Below, one piece after another: positions 33,480 through 46,408 of a stretch of 63,567 nucleotides of DNA. Source of the DNA: Clostridiales bacterium (GTDB taxonomy: Bacteria > Bacillota > Clostridia > Christensenellales > Aristaeellaceae); the NCBI GenBank assembly GCA_015056055.1, contig SVHC01000015.1:1-63567 (forward strand), written 5' to 3'. The position numbers and the translations under genes were made by a program. The notes under the pieces are model-generated. The model had not been told where the DNA came from, searched no databases, and saw only the letters and a program-made list of their open reading frames with translations. Positions within the stretch are counted from its first letter, which is position 1; each line of letters starts with the position of its first letter.

Positions 33480-34361
33480 TCACCAAAGTGTCCGCGTTTC
33501 TTTCAGATTTCCCGGAAAATTGCCCAGCACGGCAATGTGTCGAAATGCACCTGCTTGGATCAATTGCGCAATCACCACCCGCTTTTCCGCCGTTTCAAAG
33601 CTTTCGGCGTGTGCCGATGCAACCACCTTAACTCCGCAGCGCGCAGCATCCAGTACCGCATCTGCATCCAAATGATTTCCCACCTCGTCCGTTACCAGCA
33701 CATCCGGTGCACATGCGCGAATCAATTGTCCCATCGCCACCGCTTTCGGGCAGTTATCCATCACATCCGTGCGTTCACCCACATCAAATGCAGGAATCCC
33801 GTTTCTGCAGGCCGCAATCTCGCTGCGTTCATCCGCCACAGCCACATTCATACCCGAATCGCTCATAAAGCGTGCTGCATCCCGCAAAAGCGTTGTTTTC
33901 CCCATGCCCGGCGGCGCAAGAATCAAAACATTTCCGGAATTGCCCGTCAGAATCTCCTCCAGTTTCTGCGCGCATCCTTTGATTTCCCGCGCTGCTCTTA
34001 TGCACACGGAGCCTATATGTATAAGGCTTTCTATCTGTTCGCCATTCATGGCATACCTTCCGCAGACGCCCACACGGCACCCATCCTCCAGGGTAAAAAA
34101 GCCTTCCTTCAGCTCGTTCTCCCACGCATAGAGCGAATGTCTCAGCATCCGTGCCAGAATTGCACAAAGCGCTTTTTCCTCAAGTCGTTCTGATGAAAGC
34201 AATTCACCGCCGTCCGCATACCGCAGCTGTACTCGTCTTCCTGCTCGCAGGCGCACTTCTGTAAGCAGTTCTGTTTTTACCTCGTCTGAAATTTTTACCG
34301 GCAGCATGTCCAGCACATCTTCAATCACGCTTTTCCCCTCCGGCAAATATACGTTTTCCAT
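33480..34361 (-). CDS. spoIIIAA: Stage III sporulation protein AA
   Basis: A 293-residue AAA+ ATPase, the motor-like component of the SpoIIIA complex. Walker A is LAPPGMGKTTLLRD (about residues 149-162), followed by VADERSEIA, and Walker B VLVTDEVG. The N-terminal LTEVRLRAGRRVQL is typical. It is the first gene of the operon; no convincing sigma-E promoter could be assigned by eye in the 42 bases between its start and the mutY terminator. Confidence 0.95.
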   Translation of the reverse strand: MENVYLPEGKSVIEDVLDMLPVKISDEVKTELLTEVRLRAGRRVQLRYADGGELLSSERLEEKALCAILARMLRHSLYAWENELKEGFFTLEDGCRVGVCGRYAMNGEQIESLIHIGSVCIRAAREIKGCAQKLEEILTGNSGNVLILAPPGMGKTTLLRDAARFMSDSGMNVAVADERSEIAACRNGIPAFDVGERTDVMDNCPKAVAMGQLIRACAPDVLVTDEVGNHLDADAVLDAARCGVKVVASAHAESFETAEKRVVIAQLIQAGAFRHIAVLGNFPGNLKETRTLW

Positions 34362-36166: not shown

Positions 36167-36195
36167 TTGACGGAACGGGCATTTTGTAGTATTAT
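36167..36195 (+). promoter_or_regulatory. Promoter of the nine-repeat membrane protein
   Basis: TTGACG (36167-36172) and TATTAT (36190-36195) with 17 bases between. The -35 overlaps a small inverted repeat CCGTCAA / TTGACGG (36153-36173), which could be an operator. Confidence 0.7.
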
Positions 36196-36253
36196 AAGAA
36201 TGCATTCATAATGGTCATTACAGAGTTACCCAAAGAACACAGGAGTGGAGAAC

Positions 36254-38533
36254 ATGGGAAATATTAAAAAAATCGGTCAGTTTGAATATCGTTTCTCGAA
36301 GGAACGTGGTTTCGAGTGGCGAATGGGCGACGGTGAAGTTCATCGTATGCAGCTTCCTTTCGGCAAAAATGCCCAGCAGGACGCTTATGACAACGGTTAT
36401 GACGATGGATATGATAACCGCGGCTACAACAATGGCGGCAATCGCTATAACGATCAGTACAATGACGGCTATGCCCGTAACGGATACAACAATTCTGCCC
36501 GTTACGACGACAACGATTATTATGACGACGATGAAGAATTCGAAAACAAGCCCGAAGGTCTTCTCGGCATTCTGTATGAGTACGAGTGGCTGATGTGGAT
36601 TCTTCTTATCGTTCTTCCGCCGCTGGGTATCTGGCTGCTCTGGAAGCGCGAGCGTTTTGACATCGTAATCCGCAGCATTGTATCCGCCGTATCGGCTATC
36701 TGGTTTATCGTACTCCTTGTACTGCTTTTCGGCAATGTTGGCGGTTCCAATGACCAGACTACCCCCAACATGCACACCGGCGGCAATATTACGCAGCAGG
36801 CTGCATCTCCGACTGCTCCCAGCGGAACCGCAATCCTGCAGCCCACCGCTACCCCGAAGCCGACGGCTCCCGTCAATAGCAGTGCAACCCCCACCGCTAC
36901 CGCACGTCCTGCAAATCCCGGCGCCAACACCGGAACCGGCACGGAAGCAGAAAATGCAAATGCCACCGTTTATGCCCGCGTGGACGGCAAATGGTACCAC
37001 AAGCTCAAGCTCTGCTCTCAGTCCGGTATGACCGCTGAAGGTCAGGCTATGACCCTGCAGGCTGCCACCAACAACGGAAAGACCGCATGCCCCTACTGCA
37101 TCGGCACTTCCACCGGCGACAATTCCGCTAAGACTTACTATTATCGCGATGACAGCAGCGATTACCACGTAGTCAGCAACTGCCGCGGCATGAAGGACGC
37201 AACCGCCCACACCGAGGCCGAAGCTCTTGCTTCCGGCAAGGGTGTATGCCGCACCTGCATCGGCTACTATGCTACTCCCGGCGGAGACTACTATCACACC
37301 CGCGCCAACTGCGATGGTATGACCGGCGCTCAGCTTTACACCATCGCCGAGATCAAGGCTTTCGAAAAGCCGCACACCGCATGCCCGAAGTGCGCAGGCG
37401 GTACCGTGAAAAAGACCGTTACTTCCCTGACCGACACGGTTTATATGACCGCCGGCGGTAAGGACTTCCACACGCAGTCCAACTGTCAGGGTATGGAAAA
37501 CGCCAAGGCAGTTACCGTTGAAGATGCACGTTACATCCATAACAAGGGTGTCTGCAAGCTGTGTGTAGAACTCGACTTCTCCAACGTAAAGGTTGAAACC
37601 AATCCTTCCAAGGTCAAGAATTCCAGCTACGTGTACGCACGTCAGGGCGCTCAGTACTATCACATCAACAAAGATTGTGACGAGATCGCCAACCGTTCCT
37701 CCTATATCGTAACCGTCAAGTTTGCACTTGCACAGGATATGACTCCGTGCCCGACCTGCATTCTCTACGCAAGCAACAATAACATCGATGCCACCCCGGC
37801 TCCCGGTCAGCCCGATGCCTTCAGCGCAAAGGACGTTAAGTGGTATTCTGCTAAGGGCGATAAGTACTTCCACGTAAAGGAAAAATGTTCCAATACAAAG
37901 AGTTCCCTGACCGCCACTTCCCCGGCCGTAATTCAGGACCGCAATCAGGATCCCTGCCCGCTGTGCATCGGTGTTAAGAAGATCGGCAATGTATATGCCC
38001 ACTCCAGCGGCAAATACTTCCATTCCACCACCAACTGTGACGAAGCAAGCGGCTGCATCGAAGTTTCCCTGTTCAAGGCTCTCGCCTACAACAAGGCTCC
38101 CTGCCCGCTGTGCATCCTGAATGAGAACCTGACTACCAATCCCATTGCACAGGCAACTCCTACCGCAGCACCTTCCACCACTTATATGTACCTCGACGTT
38201 GACCTCGTATACCATAAGAAGTCTTCCTGCAGCGCAGTCCCCTCCACCACTCAGAAAATTGCACTGCCGGTAGCAATCGAGCGCTTTACTCCCTGCTCCG
38301 TCTGCAACCCGCCGACGAAGGTTGAGGAAGCTCCCGAAAATACCAACAGCAACACTTTCGTATACGTCACCTTTGAGGACATTAAGTACAACGATTACTA
38401 CCACAAGACCAACTCTTGTCCGGATGCCGGCATCAACTCCGGCAACAGCACCCGCGTAACGCTTGCATGGGCTCTCAAGGCCGATTACGATCGCTGCCCG
38501 AAGTGCAATCCTCCTGCAAGCTACGACGACTAA
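36254..38533 (+). CDS. Membrane protein with nine H-x4-C / C-x2-C repeats
   Basis: A 759-residue protein. Residues 1-100 are soluble and rich in D, N, Y and G; two helices span about 111-130 and 139-160, with a basic loop (KRER) between; 165-235 is a P/T/A/G linker. Then come nine repeats from 239 to 751. Each has Y/F-H-x4-C then C-x2-C: His at 249, 305, 348, 406, 470, 540, 590, 654 and 717; the next Cys always five residues on; the C-x2-C 21-25 residues later. The unit resembles the small CCCH metal-binding motif found singly at the ends of some nucleases and in Ada-like domains. A zinc-binding array at the cell surface is inference. ATG 36254 follows AGGAG. Confidence 0.8.
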   Translation: MGNIKKIGQFEYRFSKERGFEWRMGDGEVHRMQLPFGKNAQQDAYDNGYDDGYDNRGYNNGGNRYNDQYNDGYARNGYNNSARYDDNDYYDDDEEFENKPEGLLGILYEYEWLMWILLIVLPPLGIWLLWKRERFDIVIRSIVSAVSAIWFIVLLVLLFGNVGGSNDQTTPNMHTGGNITQQAASPTAPSGTAILQPTATPKPTAPVNSSATPTATARPANPGANTGTGTEAENANATVYARVDGKWYHKLKLCSQSGMTAEGQAMTLQAATNNGKTACPYCIGTSTGDNSAKTYYYRDDSSDYHVVSNCRGMKDATAHTEAEALASGKGVCRTCIGYYATPGGDYYHTRANCDGMTGAQLYTIAEIKAFEKPHTACPKCAGGTVKKTVTSLTDTVYMTAGGKDFHTQSNCQGMENAKAVTVEDARYIHNKGVCKLCVELDFSNVKVETNPSKVKNSSYVYARQGAQYYHINKDCDEIANRSSYIVTVKFALAQDMTPCPTCILYASNNNIDATPAPGQPDAFSAKDVKWYSAKGDKYFHVKEKCSNTKSSLTATSPAVIQDRNQDPCPLCIGVKKIGNVYAHSSGKYFHSTTNCDEASGCIEVSLFKALAYNKAPCPLCILNENLTTNPIAQATPTAAPSTTYMYLDVDLVYHKKSSCSAVPSTTQKIALPVAIERFTPCSVCNPPTKVEEAPENTNSNTFVYVTFEDIKYNDYYHKTNSCPDAGINSGNSTRVTLAWALKADYDRCPKCNPPASYDD

Positions 38534-45040: not shown

Positions 45041-46408
45041 CTATCCCTCTATCGGAACAGCCACATCCGTTCCCATGTGATCCAGAATTCTTTCCCATGC
45101 ACCTATGACCTTATTCTGGATACCCGGGCTCATTCCATCCGGCCGCTCCTCCAGCCACTGACCCGCGGCAACGATTTTATAGAAATATTTTCCGTTTCCG
45201 CCGCGGCAGATATAGGTCGGAATGTATTTGGGAGAAACGATCTCGTATCCCCTTTCTGCCTTCTGGATGGTAAATTCAAATATAATGCCTGCATCACACT
45301 GCTCATTGCGCTTATCCGCAAGGAAATTTCCCAACGAATAAAGCACAAGCGTGCGCCCCTTAGTTCCGTCATCACGCGTTGTTTCCAGCCACTGCGCCGG
45401 CTGAACGGTATGCGGATGACCGCCAATGATTACGTCAGCGCCCGCTGCTGCAATTCTTTCGGCATAATACAACTGCGTATCATCCGGATACAAATCATAC
45501 TCCGTACCCCAGTGTGCATATACCACTACGACATCAGCGCCGGCATTGCGCGCTTTTCGGATATCCGCAGCAAAGTCTGCATCTTTCAGGAAACGGATTC
45601 CGTACGTTACCGCATCGGAATCGCAGTGTTTTTCCATGCGGTTTGCCGATTCGGTATAGTTCAGAAAACCAACGGATATTCCGTTTACATCGACAATTTT
45701 CGCCTTGTCCCGCTCCGTTTGTGAACGTGCGCCGCCCACAAAATTCATGCTGTACTTTTCACAGTTTGCAATCGTGCCCTTCAATCCGTCAAAATACGCA
45801 TCAAGTGCATGATTGTTGCCAAGCGTAAGCATGTCCACACCGCTCACCCTCAGAGCCGCAATCAGCTCAGGCGGCGTATTGAAATTGGGATACCCCGCAT
45901 AGGGCCGCTTTTCATTACCGCACAAAGCACCGTCTATATTGGCGATTGTGTAATCCGCATCCGACAGACTTTCCGCAATATGCTCAAATATAGGCGTAAA
46001 ATCGTATGCCTTATCCTGCTTATTGTAAGCACCTTCCAGAACATTGGTATGCACGACAAGATCACCCGCGAACCGGATACGTGCGTTCTGCGGCGTCGGT
46101 TCCGGGGTCGGCACAGGCGTTGGAACAGGCGTCGGAGTCGGTGTGGGCTCTGCAGTAGGTTCCGGAGTCGGCGTAGCAAGCGGCTGCGCCTGCGCTGCCA
46201 ATACCTGCGCAGACAGAACCTGAATTCCGGTGTCTTCCTTTCCTTCCTCCCCGGAGTTCATGGTCGTAAACAAAAGAAACACGCCAAGCACTACCGAAAG
46301 CATGCACAAAACAGCGCCGGAAGCACTGATCTGTCCCCTGCGCTTTGCTCGCCTGGTATTCTTTTTTGCTGCTATTTTTTTCCTGTTCATGGCATTTATT
46401 ATACGCAT
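45041..46408 (-). CDS. CapA-family (poly-gamma-glutamate synthesis-like) exported protein
   Basis: A 455-residue protein: a basic N-terminus, one transmembrane helix (about residues 33-50), a linker of repeated TP, EP and VP pairs (about 78-105), then the CapA metallophosphatase-like domain with FAGDLVVH, NIDGALCG, LGNNHALD, YAHWGTEYD and IGGHPHTVQP. CapA proteins are tied to poly-gamma-glutamate capsule synthesis but most homologues lack a proven role. No capB or capC is nearby. No clear ribosome binding site precedes either ATG at 46408 or 46390, so the start is uncertain. Confidence 0.85.
   Translation of the reverse strand: MRIINAMNRKKIAAKKNTRRAKRRGQISASGAVLCMLSVVLGVFLLFTTMNSGEEGKEDTGIQVLSAQVLAAQAQPLATPTPEPTAEPTPTPTPVPTPVPTPEPTPQNARIRFAGDLVVHTNVLEGAYNKQDKAYDFTPIFEHIAESLSDADYTIANIDGALCGNEKRPYAGYPNFNTPPELIAALRVSGVDMLTLGNNHALDAYFDGLKGTIANCEKYSMNFVGGARSQTERDKAKIVDVNGISVGFLNYTESANRMEKHCDSDAVTYGIRFLKDADFAADIRKARNAGADVVVVYAHWGTEYDLYPDDTQLYYAERIAAAGADVIIGGHPHTVQPAQWLETTRDDGTKGRTLVLYSLGNFLADKRNEQCDAGIIFEFTIQKAERGYEIVSPKYIPTYICRGGNGKYFYKIVAAGQWLEERPDGMSPGIQNKVIGAWERILDHMGTDVAVPIEG

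Follow-up and report, generated by a model that had tools for sequence, protein, structure and literature searches.

The N-terminal zinc domain of Ada (PF02805, Ada_Zn_binding) is the known domain most similar to the repeats reported here; Cys38, the first of its four metal ligands, acts as the nucleophile and takes up the methyl group. To our knowledge, few tandem Cys/His zinc modules have been described outside bacterial cells. The streptococcal Pht surface proteins, which contain several small zinc units, set a precedent for a zinc scavenger made of small repeats (PMC3842936), and zinc-binding cell-wall proteins are the topic of PMC12445094.

Here we describe a protein of 759 aa (henceforth the array protein) encoded in a 63,567-nucleotide stretch of DNA from an uncultured Clostridiales bacterium of gut type (GenBank assembly GCA_015056055.1, contig SVHC01000015.1; the whole stretch is called the window below). 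Its gene, an open reading frame (ORF) on the forward strand at 36254..38533, from the ATG at 36254 to a stop codon ending at 38533, has homologues in other genomes. From the N to the C terminus the protein comprises a small beta domain, an acidic linker, two helices, a Pro/Thr/Ser-rich (P/T/S) linker and nine Ada-like units, each with one His and three Cys (HCCC) as potential metal ligands. The module looks like a variant of a fold already known, and with evenly balanced confidence we read the whole as a membrane-anchored surface protein, whose Ada-like modules with structural metals would form an array for multivalent binding or scaffolding. The repeats, the conservation and exchange of their ligands, the order of the array, the predicted fold and the gene linkage in relatives were computed; from these we infer zinc as the metal, a location outside the cell and a binding role of the array. 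An earlier note on this DNA, made from its letters alone, had recognised no counterpart of a nine-unit array on a membrane stalk, and in the open-licence part of PubMed Central we likewise found no account of so long and position-conserved an array, or of such a domain, repeat or lineage.

Nine HCCC units and their likeness to Ada

All nine units follow the pattern H-x4-C-x(21-25)-C-x2-C, with the H-x4-C spacing exact in each and gaps to C-x2-C of 24, 21, 23, 22, 23, 22, 21, 21 and 25 residues in units 1 to 9. They lie on the forward strand at 36965..37102, 37133..37261, 37265..37396, 37436..37567, 37628..37762, 37841..37969, 37991..38116, 38180..38305 and 38351..38512, and were located by the pattern and by a unit profile, save unit 8, which matches the pattern, fell below the cut in the class-wide profile scan and was recovered in the search of the window's own genome. 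Their ligands amount to 9 His and 27 of the 28 Cys of the protein, the single Cys outside the ligand set being Cys601, within unit 7. The coordinates, spacings and counts confirm the nine H-x4-C...C-x2-C repeats with 36 potential ligands that the earlier note had read from the sequence. When the array was shuffled 10,000 times, unit matches averaged 0.0061 and never exceeded 1, versus 9 observed, and the remaining window, read in six frames, yielded 2 isolated matches to the unit pattern.

The full-length structure model is of moderate quality only (mean predicted local distance difference test score, pLDDT, 69.1; predicted template modelling score, pTM, 0.31). It places three strands and a short helix in each of the nine units, and also contains the two helices and the disordered linker proposed earlier. 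Unit 2, modelled singly with its flanks, reached pLDDT 91; the best matches of this model in the PDB, with weak scores, are entries of the Ada N-terminal domain (1adn, 1wpk, 1zgw, 1u8b), and it can be aligned only from Ada residue 22 onward. The unit shares with the Ada domain the order and rough spacing of the four ligands, a helix followed by C-x2-C at the end and, in prediction, what seems to be a similar fold. It differs in having His instead of Cys38 and one residue more in its H-x4-C, and in occurring in tandem, without a DNA-repair partner domain and probably outside the cell. The four-Cys pattern C-x3-C...C-x2-C that includes Cys38 is absent, position 1 being occupied by His in each of the 620 distinct, complete units compared below. 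The loss of Cys38 predicts that the units would not carry out methylphosphotriester repair.

The unit and Ada are linked by domains with H-x3-C spacing, many of which score above Pfam's Ada cut-off; our bridging set comprises 29 domains from 29 loci (none from L212, two from L206), was limited to the patterns H-x3-C or H-x4-C and includes at least two members (L110, L121) below that cut-off. We infer from these sequences that the unit may descend from Ada through such intermediates. The protein of L206 carries two Ada-like unit types together, VYVT...KYH and YVGN...KFH. PDB sequence searches with the array protein or the unit profile gave only chance-level matches (ribosomal proteins and a glutaredoxin). 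The earlier note was right in part: its repeated metal-type sites are supported by ligand conservation, and it missed both the likeness to the Ada zinc domain with His for Cys38 and the ordered 13-unit arrays of the largest group of relatives.

Ligand exchange, array order and single-unit proteins

With the unit profile we identified 666 units; they belong to 64 proteins, including four from the window's own genome. Of these units 625 are distinct and 5 of those incomplete, which leaves 620 for the ligand counts. His1, Cys3 and Cys4 are invariant throughout, so that the repeat Cys and His, whose lack of conservation in homologues the earlier note had named as grounds for abandoning its view, prove nearly invariant. 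Ligand 2 is Cys in 557 units, His in 49, Asp in 12, Asn in 1 and Phe in 1; 61 of the 63 units without Cys at this place thus have His or Asp, with C-x2-C retained. In the 34 proteins with exactly 13 units the exchange can be followed at single array positions: ligand 2 is Cys in 10, Asp in 11 and His in 13 at position 10, Cys in 30, Asp in 2 and His in 2 at position 11, and His in 30 and Cys in 4 at position 12, counts that refer to related sequences, not independent events, and to a profile that favours units keeping their ligands. Because ligand 2 swaps between Cys, His and Asp at one array position, the other three ligands staying constant, a metal site is favoured over disulfides; metal binding is the common property of the exchanged residues, which fits such a site. 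By analogy with Ada, the metal is likely to be zinc. Outside the array family, a protein with two hydrophobic segments and, by eye, an Ig-like segment (L096:727-1629) has a unit of the form H-x5-H...C-x2-C, with His at ligand 2.

The same data bear on the redox sensing and cysteine crosslinking listed among the roles in the earlier note, that is, on disulfides formed within or between surface molecules. The 27 unit Cys, probably extracellular, would suit such a device, and C-P-x-C recalls thiol-redox motifs, although the glutaredoxin match was at chance level. Yet the exchange of ligand 2 for His or Asp while C-x2-C persists, the invariance of His1 and the three Cys per unit, one of which would be left unpaired, make a redox or crosslinking function highly improbable.

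The array protein was matched in 16 of 61 genomes, the window's own included (E 0.001), and G001, labelled as the same genus, encodes a protein 54% identical to it. A scan of named records added 63 loci, a set that partly overlaps with the genome samples (over the query, L122 is 100% identical to L061); nearly all are titled as metagenome-assembled genomes of Clostridia, Clostridiales or Eubacteriales, and several titles of records with array-protein loci name ruminant gut sites. Four of these loci (L177, L182, L183, L184) have no unit-bearing frame of at least 80 aa. Among the 60 unit-bearing proteins from the other 59 loci, some of them fragments, 34 have exactly 13 units, and the remainder range from 2 units (a fragment) to 16 matches (beside a masked stretch); one group of paralogs (L168-L174, L181) has five. 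The closest named relative, from Candidatus Alectryocaccomicrobium excrementavium (L166), has nine units as well. The window's own genome encodes three further proteins with, by eye, a similar two-helix region, carrying 3, 1 and 1 units. Two proteins (L063:4113-6239 and L064:3589-5559) carry 3 and 5 units together with one membrane helix and an N-terminal region that is anti-sigma-like, both judged by eye; the architecture may serve sensing, and neither protein had a Pfam match. In relatives, Pfam matches to PAS_9, PilJ_C and zinc-ribbon models were weak, with scores under the respective cut-offs, and were disregarded.

Within the 13-unit group a unit's best foreign match occupies the corresponding position of its array in 9,980 of 14,586 comparisons (chance 1 in 13), and only 12 of 442 units are nearer to another unit of their own protein than to foreign units, in a test that sets 33 foreign units against 12 own ones among related proteins and so leans toward few own matches. 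The array positions of this group thus seem old and separately kept. Repeat shuffling within these arrays was set aside, since units match by position, although kinship of the proteins softens the test. The nine units of the window do not map cleanly onto the 13 positions; they are collinear with the nine of L166. A mobile origin of the array gene finds no support: the single match in the plasmid scan was weak and confined to the helix region, and 0 of 24 candidates in viral contigs were confirmed. In the first contig scan of genomes with the array protein, 0 of 20 candidate stretches were confirmed.

The earlier note's remark that the unit occurs singly in other proteins is borne out by the class-wide scan, which found it in 60 of 291 genomes, 44 of them with one match; in a phylum-wide sample, which overlaps with the former, it was found in 30 of 398. 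No genome of either sample except the window's own has more than 4 matches. These tails of Clostridia proteins contain the identical module type as the array and differ from it in being fused to an enzyme or wall-type domain, mostly with one match per genome. Units with H-x4-C (20 of 31) prevail over those with H-x3-C (10 of 31), the unit stands at or near the C terminus in the 30 frames read, and a simple hydropathy scan found a hydrophobic segment N-terminal to it in 28 of the 30, the exceptions being short (106 and 105 aa). We surveyed the architectures of 29 loci (L073-L101), the best-scoring part of the class list. The partners are Cu_amine_oxidN1 with Endonuclea_NS_2 in six loci (L077, L079, L080, L085, L086, L087), Lactamase_B in three (L084, L090, L100; metallo-beta-lactamase, MBL, fold), and SNase (L091, a thermonuclease homologue), SH3_3, a surface Ig-like domain, an AAA helicase-like domain and DUF4236 (L076) in one each; M78 was over the cut-off in one, just under it in another and seen by eye in a third, and further loci gave no matches.

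The endonuclease-domain, thermonuclease-homologue and MBL-fold partners raise the possibility that the Ada-type module binds nucleic acid and that the array captures DNA from the surroundings, to be used in adhesion, as food or for uptake. Many arrays are indeed strongly basic (net charge up to +96), but others are acidic (down to -42) and that of the window is near neutral (+3), and the SH3_3, Ig-like and M78 partners have no evident link with nucleic acids. Moreover, the residues between Cys3 and Cys4 are mostly Pro-x in the units, not the pair found in Ada (Lys-Arg, Lys-Lys or Leu-Arg in seven Ada sequences), whose Arg we take to contact DNA. We therefore regard nucleic-acid capture as a rather unlikely function.

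Topology, gene neighbourhood and function

The two helices (residues 111-132, kinked, and 137-161; 36584..36736), taken as membrane helices from the model and the flank charges, include a conserved PLGI..LW motif and enclose a basic loop. Flank charges were measured in the 60 of 64 proteins in which the helix motif was found (omitted were L002, L135 and the fragments in L143 and L175): among these, every loop has 2 to 5 Lys/Arg (mean 4.3), the N flank has on average 1.3 Lys/Arg and 7.4 Asp/Glu and is net acidic in 58 (not in L004 and L006), and the C flank has a mean of 0.28 Lys/Arg. By the positive-inside rule the basic loop suggests that both ends are extracellular, as the earlier note had proposed.

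In the function we favour, the two helices with their short basic loop inside would place the tail outside the cell, the disordered P/T/S linker would serve as a stalk, and the tail would consist of small modules in a row, each held together by metal. Each would be related to the Ada N-terminal domain but shorter, with one Zn bound by His-Cys-Cys-Cys. With His in place of Cys38 the module would retain fold and site and lose the methyl-accepting chemistry; the metal sites would be structural, doing the work of a hydrophobic core in a domain some 45 residues long. Displayed together on the surface, the modules would serve as a multivalent array for binding or scaffolding, perhaps in cooperation with a CapA-like protein encoded nearby.

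Such a gene is a regular neighbour in relatives. Leaving aside 8 five-unit paralog loci and 8 whose upstream sequence is shorter than 1 kb, 43 main-group loci offer 1.29 kb or more on that side; 40 of them have a divergent CapA-like frame 203-1034 bp upstream, called by Pfam (PGA_cap) for the L162 protein and by tblastn for the others, and MutY is also present in 36 of the 43. The exceptions without the divergent gene are L159, L166 and L175. This shared neighbourhood suggests vertical inheritance. In the window, a PGA_cap gene lies on the reverse strand at 45041..46408, 6.6 kb downstream of the array gene (PF09587 over its cut-off at 45314-46078; 34% identity to the L162 protein), and is possibly the counterpart of the divergent gene of orthologous loci; two more PGA_cap genes are found elsewhere in the genome. 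In three of the eight five-unit paralog loci (L170, L171, L174) we noticed by eye an MBL-fold secreted protein encoded 1-2 genes upstream on the same strand.

HCCC sites within a fold are normally tight and structural. This counts against a surface zinc reservoir, in which the units would scavenge zinc and hand it over to an uptake system, even though nine to thirteen sites per molecule at a likely surface location would suit that role. Mere capacity needs no position-specific units, and the conserved neighbours are MutY and the CapA-like gene; inspection by eye of the 25 largest neighbour clusters, a set with several antisense artefacts, showed no gene for zinc transport, which leaves the metal storage envisaged in the earlier note without genomic support. 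The streptococcal Pht proteins, for which such a role has been proposed (PMC3842936), and the zinc-binding cell-wall proteins (PMC12445094) lend it some plausibility. The Pht proteins resemble the array protein in being surface proteins of several small zinc units, but their ligands lie in HxxHxH motifs, and the 15 His of the array protein include no such motif and no pair three residues apart (a comparison at the level of motifs). We consider a reservoir unlikely.

Several observations weigh against the multivalent surface array that we favour. PF02805 (23-bit cut-off) gave no match up to E 10 for the array protein, nor for eight relatives; the window has no divergent CapA-like gene, the neighbours of the array gene being those for a LysM protein and MutY; and the topology is less than certain, because the N-terminal tail is long and lacks a signal peptide and some paralogs have basic N flanks. 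The missing signal peptide and the basic N flanks would also suit an array with both termini in the cytoplasm, binding partners inside the cell, as would the faint likeness of the N-terminal domain to DUF4236; in two proteins (L076, L110) a DUF4236 domain with basic flanks stands before the helices. Against this placement stand the flank charges given above, the P/T/S stalk, the secreted-type single-unit relatives (by the simple hydropathy scan) and the Ig-like segment that in L096 follows a similar two-helix anchor (by eye, with no Pfam match), and we judge it improbable. An inside location, a zinc reservoir and nucleic-acid capture are the main rivals of the surface array.

Neither Pfam nor NCBIfam yielded a significant domain in the array protein. 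The small N-terminal beta domain (residues 1-32; 36254..36349) is predicted with strands (block pLDDT 74-81). Its identity as DUF4236 (PF14020) was rejected for want of a Pfam match at the 27-bit cut-off; hhalign against two DUF4236 sequences gave 22.8%, and the sole PF14020 match in the genome is a different protein. A protein on contig 49 of the same genome (L110:763-1665) combines a DUF4236 domain, hydrophobic segments, a Pro/Thr linker and one H-x3-C Ada-type unit. Two disordered linkers (pLDDT under 50, except at residue 213) flank the helices of the array protein: one acidic and Tyr-rich (residues 36-98; 36359..36547), the other P/T/S-rich (residues 163-232; 36740..36949). An AGGAG at 36241..36245 on the same strand is the likely ribosome-binding site for the ATG, and is overlapped by an alternative GTG start at 36245 that would lengthen the ORF. 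A promoter-like TTGACG-17-TATTAT at 36167..36195 (forward strand) is a consensus match only, weakly supported by 7 such sites in the region versus a mean of 2.8 in shuffles. A gene for the sporulation protein SpoIIIAA (Pfam Spore_III_AA) lies at 33480-34361 on the reverse strand, and the window thus holds at least part of a sporulation locus nearby.

More speculatively, an Ada-type DNA-repair fold may have been recruited outside the cell with the change of Cys to His and come into general use as a surface module among Clostridia. A single lineage would then have multiplied it into a position-conserved array of 9 to 13 units, which together with a CapA-like partner would serve as a multivalent receptor for a polymer of the surface or of the host; this full scenario is tentative, and we consider it less likely than not. 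Small metal-held modules are a cheap route to long extracellular proteins. If the surface array is real, uncultured Clostridia from animal guts would possess a new family of surface repeats, built from an Ada-type domain that has lost its signature chemistry, and the orthologous sites of these repeats would document how Cys, His and Asp have naturally replaced one another at a single metal ligand.
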